The notes beneath the pieces were generated by a model, which searched no databases, was not told where the DNA came from, and saw nothing but the letters and a program-made list of their open reading frames with translations. This document shows, in pieces, positions 37,113-64,000 of a stretch of 64,000 bases of DNA. Position numbers and translations under genes: made by a program. Source of the DNA: Mycoplana azooxidifex. Lineage in GTDB: Bacteria > Pseudomonadota > Alphaproteobacteria > Rhizobiales > Rhizobiaceae. How positions within the stretch are numbered: position 1 is the stretch's first letter; every line of letters starts with the position of its first letter. The stretch spans positions 124,001 through 188,000 of the forward strand of contig NZ_JACIEE010000010.1 of assembly GCF_014196765.1 (NCBI RefSeq), written 5' to 3'.

Positions 37113-37214
37113 CAGCTCAAATCTCTTCTAAATATCCATAATCACAAGCAATATATTCGGCATAGCTCGAAGAGTGAAAGAAACAACAGGGCGCCGCAAC
37201 ACTATATTGCATCC

Positions 37215-39140: not shown

Positions 39141-41026
39141 GCTTGCTTCTCCAGAACATACGCCGCAGCCTCAACCATTGCGTCGTCCATCACGCCAAAA
39201 CCCAAGTCGGCCATGACTTCAGGACGCGCTGTGCCGAGCACAACTTTCTCACGCCAATTTCTGTAACTCGATAAGAATAAACAAGTTCGAGAAGTTATCG
39301 CTCCAATCCGCGAGCCCTTCCGCATTAGCTCTAACCCGCGCTCCACAAATATTGCGAGAAGATCGTTCTTGCTTATTGGGTAAGCTTTACTGAGTTGTCC
39401 TTTAGTCCCCGCTACCAGCGCGCCGAAAGGCGGATTCATCACGACGACATCGAACCTTTCACGGCAGTGGTCGATCATTCGCAGCCCTTGCAGCGCGTCT
39501 TCGGCAAACAGCCGCCCCTGATAGGTGGACCGCACTGCGCGGGCGTAATCCGTCAGCGCCTCGCGAAGCCGCGCCTCGGCCTTCTGCCAATGCGCCATGT
39601 CTTCGGTACGGAAGAGCACACCATGTTCGCCAAAGACCTTGCGGATCAGCGCGGGCAGCTCCTTCTCGACCTGCAATAGCACCCCTAGCTCGGGTAAGCC
39701 CTTGAGCATGAACAGCGTCTGCTCGAATAGCTCGGCATCTAGTGGATCGAGTTCCTCCATGAACCGATCGCGCAGATCCACCTCGGCAGGGGGCGCCACC
39801 GCCGCCACTACGTGCCCCTTTCCGACCTGCGGCCGGTCCTTGGCCTTCACCCCCGCCTGGTGCCAGGCCCGCTGCGCCCGTAGCCACAATGCCAGAGACG
39901 CGATCTGTGCCGCCCGCGGGTCGATATCGACACCGTAGATATTGCGCTCGATGATCAGCCGCGGCACATCCCGCAGGAAGCTATCCTGATCGGGATAGGT
40001 CTCCGAGAGCGGCTTCAGATTACGGTTACCGCCGGTTTCTCGATCCAGCGCGCCGGGGCCATGGGCCTGCTCCCACGCCCATGCTTCGCGGTAGATCTCT
40101 TCGAACAGGTCGAAGGCATAAAGTCCAAAATGCATCGAGCCACAGGCAGGGTCGAGCAACTTGATGGTTCTCGGGTCGCGCAGGCATTTTGCCGCCTCAG
40201 GCTGCTCGTCTGGCTTCGCTAGGAGGTATCGGCAACGGTCCCGCAGCATCGTTCGCCCGCCAGTCCAGTTGAACCAGAGCCGCCCGAGCGTATTGTCAAC
40301 CAGGAACTCCACCACATAGCGCGGGGTGAAGAACTGGTTGCGCACGGCGAGCTCGCGGCTGTTGCGTGGTGCTTGCGAGGCCTCGCGCATCGCTTTGCGC
40401 TCTTCCTTTGAATTGAAGTACTGATAGATCCAGCCAATCGTCTCGTCTTCGGCCCACAGAGGGTCGATTTCACCGTGATTGATCAGAGACAGAACCTGAA
40501 CAAGCGCTGTCTCGCGAGGGAACAGACGCCCTTGCGGCGAATAGCGATCAAAGAGGGTCGGCAAGTCCTGAGATAACTCGTCAAAGACGCTCAGAAGATA
40601 GGCCCGATAAGCATCGCCTGTTTCACCAAGCCCAGCGCCCGCCAGGCGGGAATAAAGCTGAAAACCCTTTGCCTGATAGCCGTTACCAACCGACTCAATT
40701 AGCAGTCCGCGCGCCTCGGCCATCCGCAGCGCCGCCAGGCGATTGAGAATGGTGAAAGCTTGCTCACGTACAATCCGGTCGAGGCCAGCGGTCGCGTCCG
40801 TCCCCGGGCTCGCGCAATAATGCGCCAGCGTGTCACGTAGGATGCGCGCCGTTTCCCGCTGCGCGTCTGTCAGATGACGCAGGTTTTCGATAGGCGTCAC
40901 TATCCCGGACGCCGGATCAAGCCCGTAATCGAGCTGCAGCTGGCGGGTAAACTCCTCTTCGAGTGCTTTGCGCGCCTCATTCACAAACCGCTGCAAGCGA
41001 TTGCGCGTCGCCTGATCGAAAGCCAT
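39137..41026 (-). CDS. pglX: BREX PglX, N-terminal adenine methyltransferase half
   Basis: A 629-residue protein with the catalytic half of PglX. SAM-binding motif I is LLDPACGSMHFGLYAFD near residue 295, and motif IV NPPF is in VVMNPPFGALVAG near 530; both mark an N6-adenine methyltransferase. It ends at EAAAYVLEKQA, the point where intact PglX proteins continue into the recognition domain. It starts 8 bp after brxC. In BREX it marks the host chromosome; here the specificity part is supplied by the next gene. Confidence 0.9.
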   Translation of the reverse strand: MAFDQATRNRLQRFVNEARKALEEEFTRQLQLDYGLDPASGIVTPIENLRHLTDAQRETARILRDTLAHYCASPGTDATAGLDRIVREQAFTILNRLAALRMAEARGLLIESVGNGYQAKGFQLYSRLAGAGLGETGDAYRAYLLSVFDELSQDLPTLFDRYSPQGRLFPRETALVQVLSLINHGEIDPLWAEDETIGWIYQYFNSKEERKAMREASQAPRNSRELAVRNQFFTPRYVVEFLVDNTLGRLWFNWTGGRTMLRDRCRYLLAKPDEQPEAAKCLRDPRTIKLLDPACGSMHFGLYAFDLFEEIYREAWAWEQAHGPGALDRETGGNRNLKPLSETYPDQDSFLRDVPRLIIERNIYGVDIDPRAAQIASLALWLRAQRAWHQAGVKAKDRPQVGKGHVVAAVAPPAEVDLRDRFMEELDPLDAELFEQTLFMLKGLPELGVLLQVEKELPALIRKVFGEHGVLFRTEDMAHWQKAEARLREALTDYARAVRSTYQGRLFAEDALQGLRMIDHCRERFDVVVMNPPFGALVAGTKGQLSKAYPISKNDLLAIFVERGLELMRKGSRIGAITSRTCLFLSSYRNWREKVVLGTARPEVMADLGFGVMDDAMVEAAAYVLEKQA

Positions 41027-41034
41027 GATTACTT

Positions 41035-44000
41035 CTATCCCTCAATGATGAGCGAGAGCTCGACATCCTGATAAGCCGAGAACTGACCGCGAAGTTGGTT
41101 CAGGCGTTGAATCAACGACTCCAGGTCGGCGAGTGTCGTTAGCTTTGCAGGCAGCGGCACCGCTTCGGTCAGCTTCTTGGGACCATCCTCAGCCATCCCC
41201 TTCTGCTGCTGCTCGATGCGCTGTAGAACACGCTCGTGCCCCTGCCGCTGGATCGAGCGGCGCAGCTCATCGATGGTGCTGTTGATATCATAGTCGCGGG
41301 TTAAGAGCCGCTTCAGACCCGCCAGGTCGTGCCCCACGCTGATCTCCAGGCCATCCAGCCTTGCGGCAACATTGCTCTTCTCCTCTTGCGTCAGCTCGCT
41401 CCATTCAGGAACACGGTGCAGGTCATCGAGGCCGTCCTTGAGGCGCTGCTTTTGCTGCTCCGCCAGAGTGGCAACAGCGTCCCTGACGCGCCCCTTTGTC
41501 TCTGTAAGCTGGGTGCTGAAATCCGCCGCATGACGATAGAACTCATCGGTCGCGAGCCGCTCCGCGACAGATTTCAGGGCATCGTCAGAATCGCGCCGAA
41601 GGTCGCCCGGTATCCCGGTGTCAGGCAGCTGAGCGATCTCTAGGCAGTGATCTTGAAGCTCGCGCAGGGTAGTTTCGAGACCATTGTCGAGCGCACGCTT
41701 GACCTCCTGGGCCCACTTCAAATTGTTGTAGATCGACGAGTCTTCAGCCCCTAACCGCTGCGGAGCATCAGATGCATCGGTGAACAGGATATCAGCGATC
41801 TCCTGATTCATCCCCTTCACACGGTCGCTACCGCCGAGCCCGAGGCGGCTCAGCCGTTCAGAAAGCGTCCCATATTCCAGCTGGAATTGCGTAAAGTGCT
41901 TGGCTGTCGCCTTGCTGATCTCCTGCTCTAGCGGGATGACAACATCGCCAACGAGGTCGGTCAACCGCTGTGCGGCTCTGCCCAGGGTTTCATTAGAAGG
42001 CCGCTCATGACGGAGGGAAACACCGACTTGGCGGAATGAGTTGTTAGTCTTAAGCGCTTCGATCGCCTGGGGGCCAGCCGCTGTAACTTCGCGTCCCGAC
42101 ACGGTGAGTTTGATTTCACCGGCCATAAGCATGGCTGCAAGGATGTAACGGGTCGTGTCAGGCGACCAACCGAACGGGTCGCTTGAGAAATCATCCAGCA
42201 AGCGCTTCCCATTCGCGATGCCATGGCGATCTATGTAGTCGCGGATGCTGGTCATCGCGCGGTGGTCTGTGCGGAAGCTGGCTTTTCCAGCAACTGTCTG
42301 AACCAGCCCCAAGGGATCAAGACTGCTCGCAAGGGCGGCGGGATTCGCCACCTTGAGGAATTTTTCTGCGTTTTCCATCGGGACGCGAACAGGGGCTTCT
42401 ACGTACCGATCGAAAACCTCCGCCGCCACTTTGCCGAGCAGCTTCTTTGCGGCCTCTAAGAGGTCCGGCTCAAGCGCTGCGACAGCAGTTGCTTCCCCGC
42501 GGAATACGAAAGACCCAGCCTGTAGCGCCTGCTTTATTTTGCTCTGAAGCTGGAGCCCCAACTTGGCTGCGCGCTCCATTTGCCCGGCGCAGTAGTCCCT
42601 AATTTCTTGCTCGGGATCGTTGCGATGAAGTTCCGCTATGCGCTGACAACGGTAAATTTCTCCGTTTAGCTCATCGAGCTCTGGATTGGTCCGCGCGACT
42701 AAGCCGATCACATTGCGGTTCTGACGTCCGCGAGAGTCATCGAGCATACGTGTACGGGCCGTCTCCGCATCATCGGGCTTAACGAACTCGACAACCGTCT
42801 GGATGGCGTTCTGGTCGCCAGCTACGCTTGTCACAGCGCTGCCGGACTGAAGCTTCAGTCCTGTAGCGACGGCCATCGTTCCGTGGAGGGTGTTGCGCGG
42901 CAGCGGGTCGAATACCTCGCGCAAGTTTGCAGCAAAGATGCTCTTCAGATCGACGGTTCTGAGGGCGATGCCGCCCCGCTCTTCCTCGATATCGCGCAGG
43001 CGTTCGCTCAAAAAGACGAGATTGCCGTCTTTTTCGCCAAGGGGCACGCGCACGTTGGCAAGCATCTCATCGACGGCTTTTCTTACCTCTTCAAGCCGCG
43101 AAGGCGCCGTTATACTCGGCTGCATCAAGGCAGCAACGTTTTGGACTGCCACCGGCAGGTTCCCCAGGATCTGGAGAATGGCTATGGTCTTAGCCACCTC
43201 CAAGTGGAGATCGCTGCCGAAGTACTCGATTTTTACTTTATCGACTGATTGATAGATGGACGGGAACGCGCGGCGGATGTCTTTTTCCAGATCGTCAAAG
43301 AGCGTAACGGTTGTGGCAAGCCAGCCGACCGGCTGGTCGGCCATCGGCTTCGAGCCGCCTTCACCCTTAAGGACGTCTTGAATAACTTTGATGGCTGAGC
43401 GCAGACCGATGCCGCCTGTCGACTTGGCCAACGCTCCCAACAGATGGAGCAGGATATCGAAGTGAGCCGGCAAGAACGGGTAGAGGTTTATGAAGCTCTC
43501 ACGGCTGAAATCGGCATCGTAGTACTTGGCGTCCTGCAGCTTTGTGTTGTGGCGCAATGCCTGGCCGTGCGCGTCAAACATTTTGCCTAGCTCGGCTGAA
43601 CCGGAAGCGGATTTTCCCAGGAGACGCCGATAGCAGATTTCCTTGATATCGTTTGACTCAAGATCGATTTGGATCGGGAAACGGTCCTTCAGTTTAAAGA
43701 GCTTCTCCGAGTTTAGCGCAGCTCGGGGATCATCTTCCGTCAGGGTTTGCTGGGCAGTTGATATGATCCAGACCTTGCCATCACCCAGGCGCTTCAGATT
43801 CTTTGCGAGGCCGTCAAGGTTGAGAATCAGATTGTCGCGCGACGCAACATACTGACCTACCTCGTCGACAATAAAGATAATGTTCTCTTTGCCGCTCTTC
43901 TCGCGGACGATATCGATCATCTCTTGAACGCGCTGATCTTCAAATACAATGAAGTCATTGGTGCTTGACGAGAAGGATTTGGCTTCCGGAAACAACGCCG

Positions 44001-44661
44001 GATACATTTCGTGGGCTATCTTGGGAATTAGCCCGTCGATGGCGAGAGGGTTGTTCTGGACCCGAGCCCAATTTGCTCCCTTGAACGCACGAGCTACGTG
44101 ATCTTCCAATTCATGCATTCGGCCATCTTTTTCGACCATGCGCTCGAATGCGGCGACCTTTAGGTTGCGAGAGTAGCCGGCCCATTGAAGGACTTTGAAA
44201 TAGAGAACTGTTGAGACGTCCTCCATTGTGGCCCCAGCGAGCATCTCGCTCGCGAGGTCGAGCATCACGACGGCAGCCGGAAACCGCTTTGCGAGCGTCG
44301 CAAGCAGCGCTTTCGTCTGCGCCTTGTTGAGACGGTCCTGCAAATGATTGATGAAGGGCGTTCCATCGACAGTGCGCTTGTCATCAAACGCCATGCCAAG
44401 ATACTTGGTGAAAGAGCTCTTACCAGACCCGTAGAAGCCGGAAACCCAGACGCCGATCTCGTTCTCGCCCCCGGCTTCCATGGCCAGTTGCATACGGTCC
44501 AGCAGCTTACGGAACTGCTCTTCGATGCTATCCGTAACTACATATTCAGAAATTTCCGCTTTGAGGCGGTTTTCCTGAGAAGCGCCATAGCTAATGACCT
44601 TCTCAATGTTTCTTTGAATGTCTTTGCTTGGGTCAAAAAGCGCACGGATCGCCATGTTCAT
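41035..44661 (-). CDS. brxC: BREX P-loop ATPase BrxC
   Basis: A 1,208-residue ATPase, the usual BrxC size. Walker A GFYGSGKSSFT is at about residues 75-85 and Walker B IIFIVDEVGQYV near 260. The rest is largely helical, consistent with an assembly scaffold. It starts 18 bp after brxB; an in-frame ATG two codons later is an alternative start. Core BREX gene. Confidence 0.95.
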   Translation of the reverse strand: MNMAIRALFDPSKDIQRNIEKVISYGASQENRLKAEISEYVVTDSIEEQFRKLLDRMQLAMEAGGENEIGVWVSGFYGSGKSSFTKYLGMAFDDKRTVDGTPFINHLQDRLNKAQTKALLATLAKRFPAAVVMLDLASEMLAGATMEDVSTVLYFKVLQWAGYSRNLKVAAFERMVEKDGRMHELEDHVARAFKGANWARVQNNPLAIDGLIPKIAHEMYPALFPEAKSFSSSTNDFIVFEDQRVQEMIDIVREKSGKENIIFIVDEVGQYVASRDNLILNLDGLAKNLKRLGDGKVWIISTAQQTLTEDDPRAALNSEKLFKLKDRFPIQIDLESNDIKEICYRRLLGKSASGSAELGKMFDAHGQALRHNTKLQDAKYYDADFSRESFINLYPFLPAHFDILLHLLGALAKSTGGIGLRSAIKVIQDVLKGEGGSKPMADQPVGWLATTVTLFDDLEKDIRRAFPSIYQSVDKVKIEYFGSDLHLEVAKTIAILQILGNLPVAVQNVAALMQPSITAPSRLEEVRKAVDEMLANVRVPLGEKDGNLVFLSERLRDIEEERGGIALRTVDLKSIFAANLREVFDPLPRNTLHGTMAVATGLKLQSGSAVTSVAGDQNAIQTVVEFVKPDDAETARTRMLDDSRGRQNRNVIGLVARTNPELDELNGEIYRCQRIAELHRNDPEQEIRDYCAGQMERAAKLGLQLQSKIKQALQAGSFVFRGEATAVAALEPDLLEAAKKLLGKVAAEVFDRYVEAPVRVPMENAEKFLKVANPAALASSLDPLGLVQTVAGKASFRTDHRAMTSIRDYIDRHGIANGKRLLDDFSSDPFGWSPDTTRYILAAMLMAGEIKLTVSGREVTAAGPQAIEALKTNNSFRQVGVSLRHERPSNETLGRAAQRLTDLVGDVVIPLEQEISKATAKHFTQFQLEYGTLSERLSRLGLGGSDRVKGMNQEIADILFTDASDAPQRLGAEDSSIYNNLKWAQEVKRALDNGLETTLRELQDHCLEIAQLPDTGIPGDLRRDSDDALKSVAERLATDEFYRHAADFSTQLTETKGRVRDAVATLAEQQKQRLKDGLDDLHRVPEWSELTQEEKSNVAARLDGLEISVGHDLAGLKRLLTRDYDINSTIDELRRSIQRQGHERVLQRIEQQQKGMAEDGPKKLTEAVPLPAKLTTLADLESLIQRLNQLRGQFSAYQDVELSLIIEG

Positions 44662-44679
44662 CTCACTACATTAGTTTTT

Positions 44680-45255
44680 TCACCCGCCCACATGGACGGA
44701 GCGGTAATTGCCATCTTCAGGGTAGAAGCCCAGAAACTTCAGTCGCGTCTTGCCGGTCCTCACTCCGGGATAGAGGAAGACGGTAGGCACATGAAATCTC
44801 CCCTGAAGCTGGCTCTCAATCGCGCCAATGCGCATGAATGGATGCAGCGCTTCCAGGTCCGTGACCAGGACAAGCGTACTAGCTTTGCCCTCATGTTCGG
44901 CCAGAACGGCCTCAAGTCGGGATAGCAGCCCGTTGCCTGTAGCAATGATATCGGCAAGGGCTTTGTTTGAGCGCTCCCATTCAAGGGGAGCCGACTTGTC
45001 TTCGGCCACGCAAAGATCCCAGAACGGATCGTCTTTCAAAAGCGCCCACAAGTGCTCAGCAATGGAGAAGACTTCGACTTCCCATTGATCCTGACGAAGC
45101 TTGGAAAGCCAAGCAGGGGTCTGCCGTTTGACGTCCAGAATTTGTTCCGGCGGGAAAACGAGGTAAAAAATAGGCTCGAAGCTGGCGTGGCCGAGTTCTC
45201 GACCTTGCTTTATGCGCTCACGCAGCTCGTCAAAATCAGCTCTTAGAGAAGACAT
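44680..45255 (-). CDS. brxB: BREX protein BrxB (DUF1788)
   Basis: A 191-residue DUF1788 protein. Recognisable segments are EPIFYLVFPPEQILDVKRQ near the N-terminus, the middle strand TLVLVTDLEALHPFMRIGAIE and the end VPTVFLYPGVRTGKTRLKFLG. The start MSSLRADFDELRERI at 45255 lies inside the end of brxA (20 bp overlap) and fits the family; the longer frame adds 12 residues. Small core BREX protein of unknown biochemical role. Confidence 0.93.
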   Translation of the reverse strand: MSSLRADFDELRERIKQGRELGHASFEPIFYLVFPPEQILDVKRQTPAWLSKLRQDQWEVEVFSIAEHLWALLKDDPFWDLCVAEDKSAPLEWERSNKALADIIATGNGLLSRLEAVLAEHEGKASTLVLVTDLEALHPFMRIGAIESQLQGRFHVPTVFLYPGVRTGKTRLKFLGFYPEDGNYRSVHVGG

Positions 45256-46021
45256 CGCAGAGCGCCTCCATGCTTTGGTGTTTCCAGCCAATACGCACGA
45301 CGTCGCCAGCTGCTTGAACGATGAGATGGCCTTTCAGGGACAGGCGCTTCAGTTCATCGATCACATCGTCCCTGCTCATTCCAAAGAGCTGCCAATCCTG
45401 GTGCGTCAGAATGGCATTGTCTCCCAGACCCTTCAGGTGCAGGTCATAGGCAAGGTAGGCTGAAGCCGTCGGCGTAACGCGGTACGGAAGGATGCGTCTA
45501 TTTGACTTGAGCCCCTTTTCCAGGAGGCCGTAGTCGGCGCAGCAACCTGTGAGATAGGCTGCAACTCTCCGGACGGTCGTCTCTGACCAGCGTTTCGACG
45601 TGCGACCATCATCGATCGCGCGCTCAACAAACGCGCGTGCATCGTCGTTGCTAATCTGCTGATAGCCGCCCGCATATCGTGCCCAATAGATCTCTCTTAT
45701 GAAGTCTCCCAGGATAGGGTTTGCTCTGCTTGTGAACAGCAACATTAACTGCATGAGATCAGCTACCGGCACGGATGCTGCCAGCATTTTAAGGTGGGTG
45801 GCCGGGGATGCATCTGATACGAGGTAGCGCGGCGCAAAACACTCGGTGACGATATTGCGCAGCCTACGGGCAGTGATCATCGGGAAGCTTCCGGACTCTC
45901 GTGCAATGTCCTGCAATTGTCCCGTGCTCATCCCTGGAGCCCATAAGTCCAGCAGGGCCTTGGTCTCTGTCACCAAGCCCAACCCTGCCTGAAGCTGCGT
46001 TGTGTAATTTGCGCTGGTCAC
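45236..46021 (-). CDS. brxA: BREX protein BrxA (DUF1819)
   Basis: A 261-residue DUF1819 protein, helical and NusB-like in known structures, with DNA-binding activity reported for a relative. Visible family segments are LNIVTECFAPRYLV-type text near residue 60 (RRLRNIVTECFAPRYLVSD) and SETTVRRVAAYLTGCCADYG near 140. Begins with GTG one base after the brxE stop. Core BREX gene. Confidence 0.93.
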   Translation of the reverse strand: MTSANYTTQLQAGLGLVTETKALLDLWAPGMSTGQLQDIARESGSFPMITARRLRNIVTECFAPRYLVSDASPATHLKMLAASVPVADLMQLMLLFTSRANPILGDFIREIYWARYAGGYQQISNDDARAFVERAIDDGRTSKRWSETTVRRVAAYLTGCCADYGLLEKGLKSNRRILPYRVTPTASAYLAYDLHLKGLGDNAILTHQDWQLFGMSRDDVIDELKRLSLKGHLIVQAAGDVVRIGWKHQSMEALCDVFSKS

Positions 46022-52368: not shown

Positions 52369-53592
52369 ATGAGCAGACAACACGCTACACCACTCATCAT
52401 CACGCCTGATGGAACGACAATTCACGCAGCAACACCGTTGGGACTTGGGTCGACCGGCCATGGGCTGAATGAGGCGGCTATTCAAGATCTAGTTCAACGC
52501 CACCCGTCATGCCTTCCGATCGCAGAGATCGACCCAATGTTTGTTGGCCCGGTGGCCATTTGCCGGGAATTGACGACCCCAGCCGGATCAATCGACAATC
52601 TACTTGTGACACCCACTGGATTGCCGGTTCTAGTCGAATGCAAGCTATGGCGAAATCCGGAGGGCCGTCGTGAAGTCATCGGCCAAATCCTGGACTATTC
52701 AAAAGAACTGACGAAGTGGTCGGCATCCGATCTGCAGCGAGAAGCAAGCCGCCGCTTAGGCAGAAAGGGGAATGTCCTCGTTAAAGAGGCAGGCTATGAG
52801 GTTGATGAGGTAGCATTCAACGATGCCCTTACATTCAACCTCCGTCGCGGGCGGTTTTTGCTACTCATCGTCGGGGATGGCATCCGAGAGGGTGTCGAGG
52901 CCATCACTGAATACCTACAGGCGCACGCTGGACTTCACTTCACGCTCGGCCTCGTCGAATTACCAATCTACTCAGCGCCCGATGGCTCCAAGATTGTTGT
53001 GCCTAGAGTCCTGGCGAAGACGCTAACGATCGCCAGGAACGTCATATCGGTGCCCGAGGGCATGATGCTCGAAGAACTTGACGAGAGTGATGACGCCACC
53101 GGACTACCTGACACTCCTGAGAAAATTGCTGATCGTGCGCGGCGACGCGAAATCAGACATCAGTTCTGGTCTGAGTTTCTCGACGGCTTGCGCCTCGACG
53201 ATCCAGAGCAGATGCTACCCTCCCCTTCCCTGGGCGGACATATTGTCTTCAAGTTCGGAGCGCCGGGAGGCTCTAGTTGGCTAACAGTCTTTCGTGATGT
53301 CCGCTACAACGCCGTCGGCTTAGCGCTGTCATCAAATGTCGGTTCTCCTGGAGAAAAGGCCTCCATGATGCTGGTTGATCAAGCCAACGAGATATCGACC
53401 GAGTTAGAAGGTGCGACAGTTGACTTCTCCCAGCCACGTCCGGACATCTCACAGCGCTACTTGGTACAGAACCTCAATGACCCTAAGGATCGCCAACGCG
53501 CCATCAATTGGCTTCAGGACAGGACAAACGCCTTCATCAATTGCTTACGCCCGCGAATAAGATCCGCTTTGCTCGAAATGGGTAATGACTGA
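52369..53592 (+). CDS. PD-(D/E)XK nuclease-like protein
   Basis: A 407-residue protein. A restriction-endonuclease-type core is visible at about residues 70-110: SIDNLLVTPTGLPVLVECKLW with D76 and E90-C-K92, then GQILDYS with a helix glutamine Q106. This is the PD-(D/E)XK arrangement. The C-terminal part (about 265-400) has RRREIRHQFWSEFLDGLRL and looks like a separate helical/beta domain of unknown family. It lies in the island between the paralogues and the repeat-rich stretch. Likely a DNA- or RNA-cutting effector; target unknown. Confidence 0.75.
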   Translation: MSRQHATPLIITPDGTTIHAATPLGLGSTGHGLNEAAIQDLVQRHPSCLPIAEIDPMFVGPVAICRELTTPAGSIDNLLVTPTGLPVLVECKLWRNPEGRREVIGQILDYSKELTKWSASDLQREASRRLGRKGNVLVKEAGYEVDEVAFNDALTFNLRRGRFLLLIVGDGIREGVEAITEYLQAHAGLHFTLGLVELPIYSAPDGSKIVVPRVLAKTLTIARNVISVPEGMMLEELDESDDATGLPDTPEKIADRARRREIRHQFWSEFLDGLRLDDPEQMLPSPSLGGHIVFKFGAPGGSSWLTVFRDVRYNAVGLALSSNVGSPGEKASMMLVDQANEISTELEGATVDFSQPRPDISQRYLVQNLNDPKDRQRAINWLQDRTNAFINCLRPRIRSALLEMGND

Positions 53593-55338: not shown

Positions 55339-55527
55339 TTTCCTGGGAATTCGAACGCACATGATCACCAATCGTTGGTATTTCGTCCTGACCGGTCGTG
55401 GGCGTCGGCACGCGGCAGAAGCACTAGTCCTAGTCGGCGAGCTTCGAAAGTTGCAAGGTGCGCGCAGCACATGCACGGGGGCTAAGCCCGTGCGGGGCGA
55501 CAGACGTGCAAGTCGCCTATTTTCCGG

Positions 55528-57150
55528 TTAGCAGTAATCCTTGCTGTCAGCGTAGTTGACCGCACCGGGGGGGACCCACTGGCGGGGCTTTTCGGCTTCG
55601 CCGAACTGGCTTGGCAAGCCTATGTCAGGCCCCTCCCCGAAGGGGAACGACAGGCCGTAAGAGATGGCGAAGCGAATGAACTCATCGGCGCTGCCTTTCG
55701 GCGCGATGAAGTCTTTGGGCCGGGGAACCTCCACCAGCTTGTATGGCGGGACTCCCGCGTTGTGGTGCTTGAAGGCCCTATAGGTGGACTCGATCGAATT
55801 CTTGTACCACTCGGACTTCGAGCCGCCTCCGCCGATGAAAACGATCAGCGGGCGCATGCGGGAAGTCGATAGCTTGCCGATGAACTTTCTCTCATAGTCA
55901 GCATTCTGAAAGGCGTCTTCCTGCCAGTTCCGGCCGTCTTTTAGACGTGCCGTCATAATGACGTAGGCCACGACCTTGCGAATTCGCAAAACGAGCTCCG
56001 CGAGAACCGATTGCGAACAAGCTTTCAGCAGTTTCTCTAGTCTCACAGCATCAATATCACCTGAAGTGCCTTGCGCGAGCGAAGCTCCGATCGCGGAGAT
56101 GCCAAGTGGCTCGACCTTGCCGGAATAGAAGTTGATGCGGCGCTCCCCCAAGATATTCCGATAGTTAAACGCGACGCCATCAACCGTGCCGCCGCCAACG
56201 TCGAAATAAACATAGATGCCCGCCACGGCTTCACGGGACATGACGAACGATTGCACCGCCGCCGCAATTTCCGGCACTGCATGAAAGTCCGTAACCTCGG
56301 CCACAAGGCGCGGCTGGGTGACCCGGTAAGAAGGCAGCGCCTCCTGGAGCGTTTTCGGCACCAGATCGTCCTTGACCCACAGCCAGGCGATGCCAAGCAC
56401 TTCCTCAAATGTCGCAAGCGCTTGGGAATCGTAGTGCTCGACAGGAACACCGACATTTGCCGACCAGACCGCAACGCGGTTCTTCAGCCTGTCGGCCTCA
56501 TGGACTGCAAGCCATTGCTGGCTGCGCTGGATCACCGACGCAAGAAACCACGCGGCAAGCGCCCTGACGGATTCGGCCTTGTTCAGGTCGATCCCCTCGA
56601 ACTCGGGCAGTCGTTCGCCGATCGGCCCGCCCGCAAGGCGCATCTTCAGGTAAGGAACGATGACTGCGGATTGCTTGCCAGAAACGCTGTCGCCAAGAAA
56701 CAGCCGTCCATCGGAACCGATTGCGACTATCGAGGGCACAAGCGCTTCCTTGCCGCCCTTGCCGGCAGCAACAGTTCCCGATACCTCACTGCCGAGGTCG
56801 CGAAAGCAGACTTTCGTGAAGCTAGTGCCAAAATCAATGCCGAGATTGATGGCAAGCGGCCTTGCCTTGGGCGTGCTCCGTGGCGGAGTGTCATTCGATG
56901 CGACCGCCGCCCGCTTAGCCTGTGTCTTGACGGTTGCCGGAGCTTTGCGCGTAGGGACTCTTGCTCGAACTGCGGGCGCATTCTCCGCAACGACTGGCGC
57001 GCCCTGCGCAAAATCGGGAGGCTCCGTCACGCCGGGCCGTTTGTCGTCTGATGCCGCGCTTACATCCGGCTCGGAAGAGGTTGGCGGAACTTCCGCCCTG
57101 CCAAACACGCGCTCGTGAAGCGATCTAAGCCTGTCACGCCAGCTTGCCAT
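55528..57150 (-). CDS. Actin/Hsp70-fold ATPase of the SbcCD-helicase cassette
   Basis: A 540-residue protein. The first 95 residues are a proline/alanine-rich low-complexity region. The actin-like nucleotide fold follows: phosphate 1 INLGIDFGTSFTKVCF near 100, phosphate 2 YFDVGGGTVDGVAFN near 310, adenosine site IVFIGGGGSKSEWY near 430. It lacks a substrate-binding domain typical of DnaK. The start at 57150 (MASWRDRLRSLHERV) lies one base after the helicase stop, so the two are coupled; a TTG at 57159 is an alternative start. Role unknown. Confidence 0.8.
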   Translation of the reverse strand: MASWRDRLRSLHERVFGRAEVPPTSSEPDVSAASDDKRPGVTEPPDFAQGAPVVAENAPAVRARVPTRKAPATVKTQAKRAAVASNDTPPRSTPKARPLAINLGIDFGTSFTKVCFRDLGSEVSGTVAAGKGGKEALVPSIVAIGSDGRLFLGDSVSGKQSAVIVPYLKMRLAGGPIGERLPEFEGIDLNKAESVRALAAWFLASVIQRSQQWLAVHEADRLKNRVAVWSANVGVPVEHYDSQALATFEEVLGIAWLWVKDDLVPKTLQEALPSYRVTQPRLVAEVTDFHAVPEIAAAVQSFVMSREAVAGIYVYFDVGGGTVDGVAFNYRNILGERRINFYSGKVEPLGISAIGASLAQGTSGDIDAVRLEKLLKACSQSVLAELVLRIRKVVAYVIMTARLKDGRNWQEDAFQNADYERKFIGKLSTSRMRPLIVFIGGGGSKSEWYKNSIESTYRAFKHHNAGVPPYKLVEVPRPKDFIAPKGSADEFIRFAISYGLSFPFGEGPDIGLPSQFGEAEKPRQWVPPGAVNYADSKDYC

Positions 57151-57151
57151 G

Positions 57152-60100
57152 TCAGACAACCCTCACAACGCCCGCCGCAAGCGGTATCATGGTCGGATCG
57201 ACCTGTTGGCGCCGTGAAACGCGATCAAGCTTAGTCTTCAACTGCTCCTCCTCTTTCCTGATGAGACCTTCCGTCATCGCAACGGGGCGCAGATTCCCTT
57301 CCGCGCGAAACCGGGCGATGCGGGCCTTCAAGCCTTCGATGCGGCGGCTAGCGAGCTTTTCGGCGCTGGTACGCTGCTGATCGCATCGTACTGTGTTCTC
57401 CGCCTCAAAATCGGAAAGGCGCTCCGAAAATGCGTCCCCCAGCGCTTCTTCGCATTCGACGGCAGCCTCGCAGATGAACTCAATGTCCGGGAGCACGTTG
57501 ACCGCGTTCGGCAGCTTCTCGCCCGCGCGCGAGGCAACGGTAATCAACGCTTCGGCCTCCGAGGCCCCAAGCGTGCGGCCGCTTCCCAGCGGCTTCACCC
57601 TGAAAGCAAGTGACTGATCGGATTTCAGGCCGTTGAATGACCAGCGGTGGGCGCTAAACACATAGTCGCCAGGAGGGACACCGGCATCCTGCGCCGGGAC
57701 TTTTATCGCGGTGACGCGATGGAGCTGACTTTCGTCGTCCTCGTAGCTGAAGCGTATCCATTGTATGAGGGGATGGCTTGGCTCGATGAACTCCGCTTCG
57801 GCGGAAACCTCGTCGGCGCGGCGCGGGTCGAAAATGCAAAGGATTGGCCTGCCGCTTCGATGAAGCTGCGTTCTCGTCGATGGCCGTGCCTCCGATATGA
57901 AGTAACCCAGCGAGCGCCGCGCTTCCTCCGAGAGAGTAATGCGCAGGGCATATTCCGCGCCCGCGACAGCGTCGAATTTGGTGCCGGGGAAATTGCGCGC
58001 GAAGAAGTCTTCCACGAGGGACTGAAGCTCGCTTGCGCTCAGCCACCTGCCCTTTTCGCGGCTATCGCTGATATGGTCGAGGATGTAGTCGGAAAATCCG
58101 ACAAGGTTGACCGCCTCTTCCTCCAGGCGCTGCTGCTCCCGCTGCGTATTGCAGATTGCAAGTTCCGCCTCGACTGATTTTCGCTCGCGCTCCTCGTCCG
58201 TCAGGGTCGGATCGAGCAGGTTGACGAGCAGTTGCTCCGTCACTTCCCCGAGAATGTCTTCGAGATCGCCGATGCTCTCGCGGAACACGTTGATGCGATC
58301 ATACAGCCTCATCAGGATGCGGTCTTCGATGGTGTTCTCGACGACCATGTTGATGATCGAGATGCGTTCCGCTTTCTGCCCCAATCGGTCGAGTCGGCCG
58401 ATCCGTTGCTCCACCCTCATGGGGTTCCATGGAAGATCGTAGTTCACGATAAAGCGGCAGAATTGAAGGTCGATGCCCTCGCTGCCGACTTCGGAAGAGA
58501 GCAGGACTGACGGCCCGTCGGGTCGGGCGAAGGCGCGGATCAGATCGTCCTTTTCTTTGCCCATGTCCCCCATGATCAGCGCCGCATTGATCCCGTCAGC
58601 CTTCAGACGGCGCGCGAGGTATTTGAGGGTACCGCGATAGAAGGCGAAGATGACGAACTTCTCGCGCGGATTCCGTTTCAGCTCATTCGCAAGAAAGTGC
58701 TGGAGCGCTCGGTACTTTTCATCGCCCTTTTCCAGCGCGCCCAGCTCGTGCTTGAGGCCCATATCGGGCGGGGCGTCATCGACCGCATCGTCGCCATCTT
58801 TATTGCCCTGCGGCTCTGAACGGAGCTGCGGCGAAATCCCGAAGTCTTCCCACAGAAGCTCTTCGATGAGGCCCTTGTCGCCCCAGCTTTCCAGCGCGCC
58901 GACAATCGAACTCGCCATTTGTCTCTGCCGCGCGATAAGCGAGAATAGCGACACGCCGGTTTTGCCCGCCGCTTCATCGCGCAGGCGGCTGGTAACATGG
59001 TCGTAGAGCTGCTTTTCCTCCGCACTGAACCTGACGCTGAGAACCTGGGGCGCCCGCTCGACGCGGCGCTCCAGAACTTCGCGCTTCCTGCTTCGGGTCA
59101 TGTATTGGGAAAGAAGCGAGCGCGATTCCAGAAGCCGAAGAATCTCCACGCGACGTTCGGCATCGGTGGCGTCATCGCGAAGATGCGCCTTGATGCGGGC
59201 AAGGACGGCGTCATTCTTGAAATAATCGGACGTCTCCGCCTCGGAAATCGCCTTCAGCGCTTCGGGAACATCGGCCGGCTGCTGCCATAGTGCCCTCTGC
59301 GCGCGCACTATGCAGGAGTTCGCCGAGAGCATTTCCCCAAAGAGAAATGAATCGTAGAACTGATCGGGATCGATAAGGCGCAGAAGCTGGTAAAGGTTGT
59401 CGCTGCCGATCTGGATCGGCGTTGCGGTCAGCAGCACAAAGTGATGCGATGCCTCCCTTAGCAGGCGGGCAAGCCGGTTGTTGGCGGTTGATGGGTTTCT
59501 GAGATAGTGGGCCTCGTCGATAACGACGTGATCGAAGAGGGCGAACTCCTCGCTGGCCGTGTTCTGGTCTAGAATGCGGGCAAATTGCGCCCTGACGCCG
59601 CCGACATTCTCGTCGTCGTAATTAGCGGGAGGACGCAGTCCCTCCAGGCTGGTGATATAGACGAACGACTCCGCGCTCCTGTAGCTGGCGATGTCCTTGA
59701 CGCGCTCATAAAGGGTGCTCGCGGAAACGATTTCGCCGGTTATGTTGAAACGCTTGCGCAGATCCTCGCGCCACTTCTCGCGCAACATGGCGGGACAGAT
59801 GATCAGCAGCCGCCTGGCCGAATGACGGGCCTGTATCTCCTTCCAGATATAAGTTGCTTCAATGGTTTTCCCGAGGCCGACTTCGTCGGCGATCAGCATC
59901 CGGCCGATCGGGGATTCGATAAACCGCATGACCGGCTTGAACTGGTGCGGATAGAAGTCCGTGTTGCTGGCTTCCATCGAATAGAAGACGTTGGTCAATT
60001 CACCTTTGATCTTCTCAAATGTCAAAACGCGCCTGAGGTCGCTCGGGCCGCCGAATGAGCCTCCCTCAAGCAGATCGAAAATCTGCACCTCGTCCGCGAT

Positions 60101-60298
60101 GGGCTCCAGCAGCTCGTAGCGCTTGTATTGCTTTTCGTTGGGGCCGAAATCCACTTCGACCAACAGGAAAGTGCCTGCCTTCTTGACCCTTCCGGTCGTC
60201 GTTCCCTGCCTGCCCGGATTATCGCGGAGCCGAACGCGCGTCCCGCTCGCTTCCGGGTTCCAGCCGGCCGGCTCTTCTTCCTGTATTGCGCCCGTCAT
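57152..60298 (-). CDS. SNF2/RapA-like helicase
   Basis: A 1,048-residue SF2 helicase. Q/I motif region LIADEVGLGKTIEATYIWKE, motif II DHVVIDEAHYLRN, motif III LLTATPIQIG, and the C-terminal helicase domain with SSEVGSEGIDLQFCRFIVNY and VEQRIGRLDRLGQ, which is the RapA-type pattern. A long C-terminal region of about 350 residues contains coiled-coil segments. The start at 60298 (MTGAIQEEEP) follows GAGGGG; the frame from 60328 is less likely. 160 bp separate it from sbcC. Confidence 0.88.
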   Translation of the reverse strand: MTGAIQEEEPAGWNPEASGTRVRLRDNPGRQGTTTGRVKKAGTFLLVEVDFGPNEKQYKRYELLEPIADEVQIFDLLEGGSFGGPSDLRRVLTFEKIKGELTNVFYSMEASNTDFYPHQFKPVMRFIESPIGRMLIADEVGLGKTIEATYIWKEIQARHSARRLLIICPAMLREKWREDLRKRFNITGEIVSASTLYERVKDIASYRSAESFVYITSLEGLRPPANYDDENVGGVRAQFARILDQNTASEEFALFDHVVIDEAHYLRNPSTANNRLARLLREASHHFVLLTATPIQIGSDNLYQLLRLIDPDQFYDSFLFGEMLSANSCIVRAQRALWQQPADVPEALKAISEAETSDYFKNDAVLARIKAHLRDDATDAERRVEILRLLESRSLLSQYMTRSRKREVLERRVERAPQVLSVRFSAEEKQLYDHVTSRLRDEAAGKTGVSLFSLIARQRQMASSIVGALESWGDKGLIEELLWEDFGISPQLRSEPQGNKDGDDAVDDAPPDMGLKHELGALEKGDEKYRALQHFLANELKRNPREKFVIFAFYRGTLKYLARRLKADGINAALIMGDMGKEKDDLIRAFARPDGPSVLLSSEVGSEGIDLQFCRFIVNYDLPWNPMRVEQRIGRLDRLGQKAERISIINMVVENTIEDRILMRLYDRINVFRESIGDLEDILGEVTEQLLVNLLDPTLTDEERERKSVEAELAICNTQREQQRLEEEAVNLVGFSDYILDHISDSREKGRWLSASELQSLVEDFFARNFPGTKFDAVAGAEYALRITLSEEARRSLGYFISEARPSTRTQLHRSGRPILCIFDPRRADEVSAEAEFIEPSHPLIQWIRFSYEDDESQLHRVTAIKVPAQDAGVPPGDYVFSAHRWSFNGLKSDQSLAFRVKPLGSGRTLGASEAEALITVASRAGEKLPNAVNVLPDIEFICEAAVECEEALGDAFSERLSDFEAENTVRCDQQRTSAEKLASRRIEGLKARIARFRAEGNLRPVAMTEGLIRKEEEQLKTKLDRVSRRQQVDPTMIPLAAGVVRVV

Positions 60299-60458
60299 AG
60301 TGCCCCTCGCACAGTATTCCACGAACAACTTAAGTAACTACAATATCCATGTGGGAGTTTCCACATTTTTACTTATTTGTATTTCAGCTTCATCTTATAA
60401 GGCTCCCCCTGGCCGACGATGTTAGCCCGCGTGCATTTTATCGCAACTCCTTGTTTGG

Positions 60459-63400
60459 CTACGCAACGCGTTGGCTGATATGGCTGCCGCCCGTCGTCTT
60501 GCTGATCTGGAACCCGAACGGAATCGCCTGCTGGACAAGTTCGACGTGCGAGATGAGCCCTACCGCCCGGCTCTCGCCGACAATGTCCTGAAGGGTCTGT
60601 AGCGCCTGATCCAGCGTCTCCGTGTCGAGCGTTCCGAAACCCTCGTCGATAAAGATCGTGTTGAGATGAACGCCCCCGTTTACGCTCTCCACCACGTCGG
60701 AAAGCCCGAGGGCCAGCGCCAGCGCCGCCATGAAGGTCTCGCCCCCCGAAAGGGTCGCCGTTGCGCGAGTCCGGCCCGTATGCACGTCATGTACGACGAT
60801 GCCGAGCCCCTTCTTGCCGGCGCCTTTGGCAACCTCCTGTTCGCGCTCCAGGCTGTAGCGCCCCCCGCTCATCGGCTTGAATCTTGCGTTTGCCGAAGCA
60901 AGCACCAGATCGAACATGGCGGCGATGGCGAAAGCCTCCAGCTCCATATTCGCATTGTTCCTGCCGCTGAATGCGTGAGCGACTGCCGCGAGCGGCGCAT
61001 AGGCGTCCTCTGCCTTCTTGATGTCGCTCAATGCAGCTGCAATGCTTTCGGCCAGCTTTGCCAGAGAGTCTGCGCGGGAAGCTGCATTGGCTTCCTTCCG
61101 AAAGGCCTCGTCCCTGACCCGCGTCGCTTCTTCGCTTGCGGCGCCAAGCCCGGCAAGATCAGGACGATCCTTCCCTTCGACATTGGCGCCGGCACGGGCG
61201 GCCCTGTCGCGGGCTGCATGGAGATCTTGACCAAACCGCTCGATAGAAGCCTGCAACTCCTCGATGCGGCCGATATTCGCCTTGTGGGCTTCGTATTGCT
61301 CCCGGGTGAGTCCGTTCGCGGCAAGCCGGCCGCCGAACCCTTCTTCCGCCTCTTGCAGCGTGGCGCGCGCAGCATCGCGGATATTCGCCGCGCTTTCCTC
61401 GTCCTTACGCGCGGCAATCTGCTTCTCCCCGGCCTCACGCTCGGACTTGACCGTCTGCTCAAAAGCAAGATCGCGCCTTCTAAGCTCGTCGTCGGCAGCG
61501 GCAATCGCGGCCTCAAGCGCCTCCGTCGTCCTGAGACCTTCGGGAACCGGTGCGAGCGCGTTCTCCAGCGCCTGCGCTGCAAGGGCATGGCCGGTGACTG
61601 CCTGATCGCGGCTTGTGCGCGCAGCCTCTACGGCTGCGCCCGCTTCCGGCAACCTGCTCTCGACCCGATCCAATGCGCCACGCAACGCTTCAAGATCGAC
61701 CGCAGGGCCTAACGCCTGAATATCGCCCTGAACCTTGGCGCTATGCGCCTGAAGTTCAGCGGCAGTGTTCTCCGGCTTCGCCAATTCCGCAAGAAGAGCT
61801 TCCCTTTCCGAAAGCGTCGCCTCTTTCGCGGCACGGATCTGGCCGCTGCCAGTGCTTGCACTTCGGGCGCTATCAAGCGCCTCGCGGGCAGCGGTAAAGG
61901 CATCGTTGCGCCCCGCGCTTTCCGCCCGCCCCTGGGCAGGCGCCGGATGGTCGTGCGAACCGCAAACAGGGCAAGCCTCTCCCGGCCGCAGCTTTTCGGC
62001 AAGATGCTGCGCCTGCGCCCCCGCCAATGCCGCCTCTGCCTCGTCAAAGCCGCCCTGCGCTGCTTCCTGCGCCCGGAGATTCCTCTCGTGAACCTCCCGA
62101 GCGCCGGCAACGTCACCCCGCGCATCGTTGACCGCCTTGACCGCCCGGTCATGGCCGAGCGCCGCCTCGAGCTTTGATTTCAGCTCCTGGGCCGCAGCCG
62201 ACAGTGCCGCCCGCTGCCCGGCCATCGTTTCCGCCTCCTTGATCTGCGCAGCTATGGCGGCTTGTTCGCGAACGAGCGCGCTATGGCTGTTGTGCGCCGT
62301 CTCGAAGATCGTCGCCGCATTGCGCGCGTTACGCGCAGCCTCCTCCGTGGCCGCCTTCTTTTTCTCGGCGAGAGCCAGCGTATCGCGATGACGCTTCAGG
62401 GCCGCGCCCTGCTCCCGCATGATCTCGGTCTCGCCGCGTTTTGCCTGTTCCGCCGCCAGCAAATCGGCTGCTTTCCCCATCGCGTCCTCGGCCGCCGCGC
62501 GCGCGGCTTGCGCCTCTACACAGGTCTCGTTTGCGTTGGACAGATCGGTGCGCGCGCGCTGCATCACGACATCGACATCGCGCAAGCCCTGGGCCACGAG
62601 TGCCCCACTCAGGACAGCCCTGTCTTCTTCGATTTCCTTGCGCTTGGCCTCCATCGATCCCAGTGCCAGCGCCGCCGCGTCGTTCTCGGCAAAAGCTTTC
62701 TCTACTTCCTGGGCAGCAGCCAGCGTCTGTCCGGCCAGCGCCGCATGACCCTTTGCCGCCTCGGCCGCAGCAGCCTCGGTTTTGTGTTCTTCCTGCGCCT
62801 GCTGCGCTCCCGCCGAAAGCTCTTCCAGCGTCGCGAAGCCTTCCTGCTCCAGCCTGCTAGTGCATAGCTGGCGATCGGCCCTGATTTTTTCCTCGGCGGC
62901 TTTCGCCTCGTCCTTCATCTTCTGGGTCAGCCGTTTGTAGAGCGACACATCGAAGAGTTCGCGCAGGATCGCGAGGCGGTCGTTGGTTTTCGCCGCCAGA
63001 AACTTCTCGAAGCGCCCCTGGGGCAGGAGCACGATCTGCCGGAACTGCTCAGGCCCGTAGCCTAGCCTGCGCTCAAGCTCTTCCGCTACTGCGGAGACTT
63101 TCTTCTCCGCGATCGGCGTACCATGGTTCTCGGCGGTGATTTCATCGAGGGGAATGCCGGTGACATCGAAAAGCCACGCGCAATGCGCCTCCTTCGTGTC
63201 CTTGCCCCCACGCAGGGCCGGCCGTACCTGTTCGGGCCTGCGCCGCACAAGGTATCTCTGTGCGCCGAGCTCGAAGATGAGTTCGACCTCTGTCAGGCAA
63301 TCCGGGCTCGCGTGATCCGACCTCAAGCTCGATGCATCCTGGTCGTCCCGGGCGGGCTCGCCGAACAATGCAAACGAAATCGCGCTGAATATCGATGACT

Positions 63401-63521
63401 TCCCCGATCCAGTCGGGCCATAGATACCGAACAGCCCCGCACCGATCGCCTCCCTGAAATCGACAACCTGCTCGCCCGCGTAAGGGCCGAAGGCCCGAAG
63501 TGTAAGCCGCAACGGTCTCAT
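60459..63521 (-). CDS. sbcC: Exonuclease subunit SbcC (Rad50-like)
   Basis: A 1,020-residue SMC/Rad50-type ATPase. Walker A IYGPTGSGKSSIFSA is near residue 36, the coiled-coil arms are interrupted by the zinc-hook CPVCGSHDHP (C516/C519), and the C-terminal part has TLSGGETFMAALALALGLS and FIDEGFGTLDTETL. With SbcD it cleaves hairpins and DNA ends. The start overlaps the sbcD stop (ATGA). In this window it heads a run into the helicase and actin-like genes. Confidence 0.93.
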   Translation of the reverse strand: MRPLRLTLRAFGPYAGEQVVDFREAIGAGLFGIYGPTGSGKSSIFSAISFALFGEPARDDQDASSLRSDHASPDCLTEVELIFELGAQRYLVRRRPEQVRPALRGGKDTKEAHCAWLFDVTGIPLDEITAENHGTPIAEKKVSAVAEELERRLGYGPEQFRQIVLLPQGRFEKFLAAKTNDRLAILRELFDVSLYKRLTQKMKDEAKAAEEKIRADRQLCTSRLEQEGFATLEELSAGAQQAQEEHKTEAAAAEAAKGHAALAGQTLAAAQEVEKAFAENDAAALALGSMEAKRKEIEEDRAVLSGALVAQGLRDVDVVMQRARTDLSNANETCVEAQAARAAAEDAMGKAADLLAAEQAKRGETEIMREQGAALKRHRDTLALAEKKKAATEEAARNARNAATIFETAHNSHSALVREQAAIAAQIKEAETMAGQRAALSAAAQELKSKLEAALGHDRAVKAVNDARGDVAGAREVHERNLRAQEAAQGGFDEAEAALAGAQAQHLAEKLRPGEACPVCGSHDHPAPAQGRAESAGRNDAFTAAREALDSARSASTGSGQIRAAKEATLSEREALLAELAKPENTAAELQAHSAKVQGDIQALGPAVDLEALRGALDRVESRLPEAGAAVEAARTSRDQAVTGHALAAQALENALAPVPEGLRTTEALEAAIAAADDELRRRDLAFEQTVKSEREAGEKQIAARKDEESAANIRDAARATLQEAEEGFGGRLAANGLTREQYEAHKANIGRIEELQASIERFGQDLHAARDRAARAGANVEGKDRPDLAGLGAASEEATRVRDEAFRKEANAASRADSLAKLAESIAAALSDIKKAEDAYAPLAAVAHAFSGRNNANMELEAFAIAAMFDLVLASANARFKPMSGGRYSLEREQEVAKGAGKKGLGIVVHDVHTGRTRATATLSGGETFMAALALALGLSDVVESVNGGVHLNTIFIDEGFGTLDTETLDQALQTLQDIVGESRAVGLISHVELVQQAIPFGFQISKTTGGSHISQRVA

Positions 63522-64000
63522 GCCCGCTCCTCCACGTTATTCAGTTGCCTCAGGGCGGAGCCCACCAGTGCCATCTCGTCATCCGTCCCGTCCTCGCCGC
63601 GCACCTGGCTCAAAAATTCCCCAACAACGGCGATCGGATCGTCGAGCTTGGCCTGGGAGCTGCCGCGCAACAAAATCGGTTCCGCGCTCTCATCACGCTC
63701 GTAGGTGAGCGCAAGCGCGTTGGGATAATGCTCCCTGATCCTGCCCATCGGATCGATCAGGAGCTTCTTGTCGGTCAGCACGAGCTTGATGAAATCCTCC
63801 GACGGCTCGCGGCCGCCTTTGTCCAGAAGCTCCTCTAACTCCCCTTTCAGGACGCGAACGGCGCGAGGCGGATTGATCGGCAGCTGCTGAAGCGTCACCG
63901 ATCCGTCGTGGGCAAGATCAACCATGGTAAGCGATTTGGCGCTGCCGGCTTCGTCAAAGCCGAACGCCAGCGGCGAGCCGCTATAGCGAATATGTTCGCC
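63518..64000 (-). CDS. sbcD: Exonuclease subunit SbcD, C-terminal part (runs off the right edge)
   Basis: The last 160 residues of an SbcD nuclease. The frame continues upstream beyond 64000 and starts here within EHIRYSGSPLAFGFDEAGSA, the conserved end of the phosphoesterase domain; the C-terminal capping region follows (DLAHDGSVTLQQLPINPPRA). The metal-binding motifs lie outside the window. Stop overlaps the sbcC start. Confidence 0.88.
   Translation of the reverse strand, partial: GEHIRYSGSPLAFGFDEAGSAKSLTMVDLAHDGSVTLQQLPINPPRAVRVLKGELEELLDKGGREPSEDFIKLVLTDKKLLIDPMGRIREHYPNALALTYERDESAEPILLRGSSQAKLDDPIAVVGEFLSQVRGEDGTDDEMALVGSALRQLNNVEERA

Follow-up and report, generated by a model that had tools for sequence, protein, structure and literature searches.

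Motors of the SNF2/RapA type occur in several restriction systems, among them class 1 DISARM with its helicase DrmD and systems with BrxHII/RapA-type helicases; Zorya joins membrane ZorAB to the SNF2 protein ZorD. HMA is a DUF499-centred system related to BREX (accessible part of PMC12839542), and Hsp70-like domains fused to McrB or McrC are described for CoCoNuT/McrBC systems (accessible part of PMC11090510). In CBASS, the WYL regulator CapW is a repressor of the core genes and is encoded upstream of them, on the other strand (accessible part of PMC9122588). Here we analysed a 64,000-nucleotide stretch of the genome of Mycoplana azooxidifex (Rhizobiaceae; contig NZ_JACIEE010000010.1, positions 124,001 to 188,000), hereafter the window. 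At its right end lie sbcD, sbcC, an SNF2/RapA-type helicase gene (HEL) and the gene of an Hsp70/actin-like ATPase (ACT); loci retrieved from other records are numbered with the prefix L. A preliminary description had joined the four genes in one operon, in which a translocase would guide the SbcCD nuclease and an actin-like protein would time it. We now consider it fairly probable that two independent modules lie near BREX: a WYL-controlled SbcDC nuclease, and a mobile HEL-ACT motor-switch used with nearby restriction nucleases.

HEL and ACT resemble each of these systems in part. With DrmD and the BrxHII/RapA-type helicases HEL shares an SNF2 core, RapA as its nearest solved relatives and a PADLOC model labelled 'DrmD' as top match (PDLC02623, 975 bits). 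It differs in being paired with ACT, in standing beside a true DrmD in one cyanobacterial locus (L097) and in scoring 443 bits against the NCBIfam DrmD model NF038317, below the cut-off of 610. The likeness to Zorya is an SNF2 motor with a partner that bears a hydrophobic N-terminus and coiled coils, as most cyanobacterial ACT proteins do; however, ACT is Hsp70-like and matches no PADLOC model, and HEL reaches only 57 bits to ZorD. HEL-ACT follows directly after HmaB and HmaC in three loci (L014-L016), yet HEL is unlike HmaA (175 bits, against 975 for PDLC02623), and neither HmaB nor HmaC was found among the window neighbours scanned, which sets the window apart from HMA. As in the accessible account of CoCoNuT, an Hsp70-like domain keeps company with McrBC, HEL-ACT lying beside McrBC in L116, L117 and the plasmid pAA03, but ACT has a gene of its own, which goes with that of an SNF2 helicase, and is not fused to McrB or McrC.

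Among the matches listed in our literature searches, none dealt with an SNF2 helicase paired with an Hsp70-like ATPase, the closest being the CoCoNuT paper, and the term Hsp70 does not occur in the accessible text of two surveys, on ARMADA (PMC12458937) and on BREX-related systems (PMC12839542). HEL alone is known through the PADLOC 'DrmD' model; we regard the HEL-ACT pair as a new form assembled from known parts. The preliminary description had placed the novelty in the helicase/ATPase pair, and we agree: ACT is in no library searched, and outside the cyanobacteria the pair usually lies amid restriction and defence genes. In the comparison with known systems that it had called for, PADLOC named HEL and not ACT.

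Results

HEL and ACT form a near-obligate pair

HEL (57152..60298, minus strand) starts at an ATG, with an alternative TTG possible at 60328; ACT (55528..57150, minus strand) also starts at an ATG, with an alternative TTG possible at 57159. The HEL stop ends at 57152 and the ACT ATG lies at 57150, a spacing of one base. HEL carries the Pfam domains SNF2 (91 bits) and Helicase_C (70 bits), and SNF2 motifs I, II, III, V and VI at positions 137, 261, 291, 602 and 631, and is thereby an SNF2/RapA-type helicase. A HEL profile gave at least 685 bits for proteins of the HEL clade and at most 183 for the remaining SNF2 proteins that these loci encode.

Pfam matches uphold the domain names proposed in the preliminary description for the helicase, SbcC and SbcD, whereas ACT matched nothing in Pfam, NCBIfam, PADLOC or PHROGs. 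Its core holds the motifs GIDFGT, DVGGGT and GGGG. Residues D9, T12, K16, K72, E197 and D220 (core numbering) and G344-346 do not vary in an alignment of 25 relatives and, as a motif set, speak for membership of ACT in the Hsp70/actin superfamily, the equivalence to Hsc70 positions being drawn by eye. In Hsc70 the phosphate-1, phosphate-2 and adenosine motifs go with the catalytic residues D10, K71, E175 and D199. K72 and E197 of ACT fit, by eye, K71 and E175 of Hsp70, which suggests that the active site is of the Hsp70 and not of the actin type. Among 23 cyanobacterial ACT open reading frames, 17 have a long N-terminus with a hydrophobic stretch, whose 19-residue hydropathy of 1.3-1.9 only partly exceeds the usual membrane threshold; two show lower hydropathy and four have no N-terminal extension. 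Most cyanobacterial copies have coiled coils along with the hydrophobic N-terminus, and rhizobial ACT is without the hydrophobic stretch. No ACT was found in viral contigs and phage records.

The pairing of HEL with ACT is close to obligate. In an ACT search of named genomes, HEL adjoins ACT in 18 of 19 loci, the exception being a partial ACT; in L027, HEL stands beside ACT only as an N-terminal piece. Separate searches of 398 Pseudomonadota genomes found ACT in five and HEL in the same five. On plasmids, separate searches again gave the same six records (three with ACT only ~25-27% identical), and the two genes adjoin in all five plasmid loci fetched. In 291 cyanobacteria the ACT core was present in 23 genomes among the matches listed and HEL in 22 (E<=1e-120), all within those 23; the 23rd holds HEL and ACT fragments, and HEL adjoins ACT in 23 of 23, once as a fragment. 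Two to four candidates were scored per genome, and further copies may be missed. The cyanobacterial set was drawn from a wider one: profile A1 matched 143 of the 291 genomes, its N-terminal coiled-coil columns having drawn unrelated coiled-coil proteins. Only the 23 genomes whose listed match lay in the ATPase core were retained, and the other 120 were set aside; as the matches listed reach to about E 1e-11, short core pieces may be missed. By its own check, tblastn found HEL or ACT in none of seven checked loci from the dropped matches. The ACT of L116 was found with profile A3 and not with profile A4 or tblastn.

The two proteins also vary together. Their distances correlate (Mantel r 0.965, none of 2000 permutations as high, 36 loci), in a set that contains duplicates and with rough trimming of ACT; the same locus stands twice as L032/L099, L033/L100, L021/L106, L026/L101 and L011/G301, and L034/L109 overlap. 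Both are conserved at their ATPase sites and under purifying selection. The ratio of nonsynonymous to synonymous substitution rates (dN/dS) is 0.07-0.18 over 15 HEL pairs, in several of which dS is saturated, and 0.14-0.22 for ACT (10 of 15 pairs, dS not being computable in five).

HEL-ACT is a discrete cassette

HEL-ACT is a discrete cassette of 4.9 kb, whose border falls between sbcC and HEL. Window positions 60431-55532 match two other rhizobia, L011 (92.7%) and L012 (92.6%), over 4901 bp of DNA. The identity begins 27 bp past the sbcC stop and reaches to the end of ACT, and the gene preceding HEL in L011 and L012 encodes a helicase fusion of 1703 amino acids, unlike sbcC. In L013 and L031 the match begins only near the HEL start, at 60298 and 60306, and ends at 55524 and 55517. 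The upstream DNA (60299..60431, minus strand) is accordingly common to L011 and L012, with their different upstream gene, and not to L013 and L031. Because the block of identity spans upstream DNA to ACT only, HEL-ACT moves alone, in this lineage with its own upstream DNA. That DNA, here and in L011 and L012, contains the palindrome ATGTGG-N6-CCACAT (60349..60366 in the window), a putative operator with no second exact site in the 5.88-Mb assembly. Between the stop codon of sbcC and the ATG of HEL lie 160 bp, and this gap, together with the upstream DNA that HEL-ACT keeps where another gene precedes it, speaks against the single operon first proposed.

In Shinella (L031, 7481-9719), a recombinase-like gene and a small gene precede HEL-ACT and could be a vehicle of the cassette; by eye, a relative of the small gene also precedes HEL in L013 (5314-5718).

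Neighbours of HEL-ACT in other genomes

Outside the cyanobacteria, 10 of 14 loci with wide flanks have restriction- or defence-type neighbours, a count made without L017 (an ACT fragment, no HEL) and the Sphingobium CAP-1 plasmid. The window is one of the ten, with BREX ~9.5 kb away and sbcDC adjacent. In L014, L015 and L016, PDC-S68 accompanies the HmaB and HmaC genes that HEL-ACT follows (a scan of L016 gave HmaB at 1222 bits, HmaC at 955 bits and PDC-S68; L014 and L015 were assigned by clustering). The helicase fusion of L011 and L012 is joined there by PDC-S68, a PLD-type SNF2 protein, DUF4391 and a type III methylase (L011 scanned). McrBC homologues, a RecB-like nuclease and Hachiman are near the pair on pAA03. 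McrBC (McrC matched) stands beside it in L116 and L117, the latter also with a PLD-SNF2 protein of the L011 type, and L115 has an SF1 helicase with a DUF559-type nuclease, a PLD-like protein and SNF2.

Among the 15 cyanobacterial loci with wide flanks, neighbours of a clear defence type occur in five (L097, L101, L104, L107 and L108). L097 (2217-17728) is a class 1 DISARM operon in the order DrmD, HEL-ACT, DrmMI, DrmA, with two SNF2 helicases in one operon; its separate true DrmD scores 1142 bits with PDLC02621 against 123 bits with PDLC02623. L101 (284-17845) is an island in which HEL-ACT is accompanied by pieces of DrmMI and DrmA, a short pAgo with an HNH protein, PDC-M03A and a UvrD-like helicase, and in L107 SspH (1694 bits) is near HEL-ACT. 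A DpdF-like/UvrD helicase fusion lies beside HEL-ACT both in rhizobia (L011, 1567-6678) and in a cyanobacterium (L108, 1-5034; 597 bits). Weaker matches were obtained in L100 and L102 (MkoB, 105 bits; Fic/PDC-S04, 107 bits), and HEL-ACT of L099 lies ~7 kb from type I-D cas genes.

An SbcC profile had no match in 40 HEL-ACT locus records, a set that also contains duplicates. On pAA03 (L109, 15383-20001) an SbcD-like exonuclease and an AAA ATPase lie ~10 kb from HEL-ACT; the part of this ATPase within the locus sequence does not match the SbcC profile.

sbcDC and its divergent WYL gene

With a WYL gene, sbcDC is a module separate from HEL-ACT. sbcC (60459..63521, minus strand) encodes an SbcC/Rad50-like ATPase of 1020 amino acids with AAA_23 and SbcC_Walker_B domains. 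The window part of sbcD (63518..64000, minus strand) belongs to an SbcD/Mre11-like nuclease with Metallophos and SbcD_C domains. All four domains were scored by Pfam above gathering scores, and the two reading frames have the composition of an SbcCD nuclease, a phosphoesterase with its C-terminal domain and an ATPase with Walker B. The open reading frames also agree with the gene layout first described, namely four genes on one strand, sbcD and sbcC overlapping by ATGA, HEL and ACT one base apart, and the 5' end of sbcD outside the window. Indeed, the DNA right of position 64000 shows that sbcD starts 666 bases past the window edge; its whole open reading frame of 382 amino acids is L009 8518-9666. 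Beyond it, 73 bp upstream of sbcD and divergent from it, lies the WYL gene (L009 9740-10597, outside the window). Its product resembles the solved regulators CapW (E 2e-28) and BrxR (E 1.3e-27), and by family and by orientation it is CapW/BrxR-like. A divergent WYL gene upstream of a defence-type operon is the arrangement described in the accessible part of PMC9122588; the difference is that the operon here is sbcDC.

The preliminary description had cautioned that SbcCD alone may be housekeeping, which is not the case here. SbcC of the window type had no match at E<=0.001 in six of six other genomes of the genus and matched in 13 of 297 genomes of the order, the source genome included (E<=1e-30; two candidates scored per genome), and no second SbcD was found in the source genome. 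We therefore rejected a housekeeping SbcCD for this genus on these counts. Around sbcC in 11 other genomes of the order, a divergent WYL gene was present in three and HEL or ACT in none (flanks of at least ~4 kb on a side in eight genomes, of at most 1.5 kb in three).

On plasmids, SbcD relatives occurred in 41 records (E<=1e-60), of which 17 are typed conjugative. From these records we chose 10 sbcDC loci, by our own choice and not by random draw (L138-L147). All 10 have a divergent WYL homologue at sbcD (39-54% identity), and HEL or ACT was found in none of them within ~6 kb (~4 kb on one side in L147). In these plasmid loci and genomes of the order the helicase and actin-like genes do not stand next to sbcDC, and the preliminary description had named rarity of that arrangement as a refutation of its proposal. 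The motif TTGAC recurs in every one of 14 intergenic regions between WYL and sbcD, where a TA-rich stretch is loosely conserved, and SIR2, AbiH or TIR genes are close to three of the 10 plasmid loci. WYL-sbcDC occurs on alphaproteobacterial plasmids and some chromosomes and resembles a separate defence-type module. Literature searches on CapW, BrxR, WYL and SbcC/SbcCD found no paper on such a module, and the term SbcC does not occur in the accessible text of the WYL papers PMC9122588 and PMC9122601.

BREX and other window neighbours

The BREX genes occupy 32461..46021 on the minus strand (BrxL, PglZ, PglX as two open reading frames, BrxC, BrxB and BrxA, by PADLOC and Pfam). They make up a BREX system and belong to neither module. 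They end ~9.5 kb from ACT, in line with the first placement of the four genes at the end of a BREX defence island. PglX is split at 37215-41026 into two open reading frames that overlap by ATGA, the first matching the N-terminal and the second the C-terminal half of a single PADLOC PglX model; as PADLOC also contains half-length PglX models, such a split may be known. An NYN nuclease with a LOTUS domain is encoded at 47210-47953, upstream of BREX. Between BREX and HEL-ACT, 52369-53592 encodes a protein of 407 amino acids with a weak PADLOC PDC-S11 match (E 1e-5). No DrmA, DrmB or DrmMI was found among the window neighbours scanned with PADLOC, which argues against a class 1 DISARM system here, and a tRNA search of the window and of the 32 kb to its right gave none.

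Discussion

From sequence comparison, HEL-ACT is most likely a transferable motor-plus-switch module working with different restriction nucleases, and both modules are probably defensive. HEL, as a RapA/DrmD-type SNF2 translocase, would track along duplex DNA as SNF2 enzymes do, and the nucleotide state or ATP cycle of ACT may load, hold or release it and so set whether it is active. Because no nuclease domain was recognised in HEL or ACT, the pair would supply DNA tracking or discrimination to a neighbouring nuclease, candidates being McrBC, HMA, DISARM, Ssp and PLD/SNF2 proteins. In the source genome BREX, SbcDC or no partner at all may be its counterpart. In cyanobacteria, the hydrophobic N-terminus and coiled coils of ACT could tether the pair to the membrane. 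For the other module, we propose that the CapW/BrxR-like protein, a presumed repressor by its family, holds the shared divergent promoter shut; a signal of damage or infection would release sbcDC expression, and SbcDC would then attack DNA ends. A broader version, tentative and rather doubtful in our eyes, makes HEL-ACT a general immunity plug-in, an Hsp70-gated SNF2 motor that spreads by horizontal transfer as a two-gene cassette and is employed in at least five contexts of defence (HMA, McrBC, class 1 DISARM, Ssp and PLD/SNF2); the cyanobacterial form, through its hydrophobic coiled-coil N-terminus, could act by itself as a membrane-tethered surveillance motor at the DNA entry site.

Several results weigh against two defence modules of this kind. 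Four of the 14 loci outside the cyanobacteria (L013, L018, L031 and L035) have no recognised defence neighbour except an annotated GIY-YIG in L035, and in six of the 15 cyanobacterial loci (L094, L096, L098, L103, L105 and L106) a single neighbour was scanned, with no PADLOC match. In L095 the neighbouring desulfurase matches DndA, a non-diagnostic match. Housekeeping desulfurases would match DndA too. The counts of defence neighbours are raw counts. The profile link of ACT to Hsp70 is also weak: profile A3 gave E 0.004 for an Hsp70 in the PDB, profile A4 gave nothing at E<=1 for Hsp70, and hhalign to DnaK gave a probability of 16%. Finally, an SbcD profile found distant relatives in two of the 40 HEL-ACT records (L024 and pAA03), and a loose link to SbcD is possible.

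This last point bears on the proposal that HEL-ACT guides and times the SbcCD nuclease in one four-gene system. The genes do share strand and order in the window, SbcD-like genes occur near HEL-ACT in L024 and pAA03, and the neighbouring place is taken elsewhere by other nucleases. The single machine is nevertheless very unlikely, as SbcC is unmatched in the 40 HEL-ACT records, HEL and ACT are absent from the 10 plasmid sbcDC loci and the 11 sbcC flanks of the order, and the border of the cassette falls between sbcC and HEL; co-occurrence and border together led us to reject the four-gene operon. Slightly less probable still is that HEL-ACT is left over from class 1 DISARM or accessory to it, a reading to which the 975 bits of the 'DrmD' model and the position of the pair inside the L097 operon and between the DrmMI and DrmA pieces of L101 lend some weight. 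Yet L097 carries its own DrmD beside HEL-ACT, HEL falls below the NCBIfam cut-off, DISARM genes were seen only in L097 and L101 and not among the window neighbours scanned, and other HEL-ACT loci have HMA, McrBC or no such system. DISARM membership of the window pair was rejected on the sub-cut-off score, the separate DrmD and the lack of Drm genes among those neighbours.

A role outside immunity deserves a little more credit, although we consider it unlikely: HEL would remodel protein-DNA complexes or recycle stalled polymerase in transcription or repair, with ACT as its chaperone. RapA proteins are indeed the best solved relatives of HEL, and several cyanobacterial copies have no defence neighbour among the proteins scanned. 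However, the distribution of HEL-ACT is patchy and mobile (5 of 398 Pseudomonadota, 23 of 291 cyanobacteria among the matches listed, and plasmids), and restriction or defence partners recur in proteobacteria and in cyanobacteria alike.

The constant Hsp70-like partner of HEL makes the control of SNF2/RapA-like motors in restriction systems directly testable with two genes. In proteobacteria and cyanobacteria alike, this partner has been retained beside the genes of HMA, McrBC, DISARM, Ssp and PLD/SNF2. As for the second module, the WYL-controlled sbcDC of plasmids suggests a DNA-end nuclease that serves conflict, not housekeeping repair.

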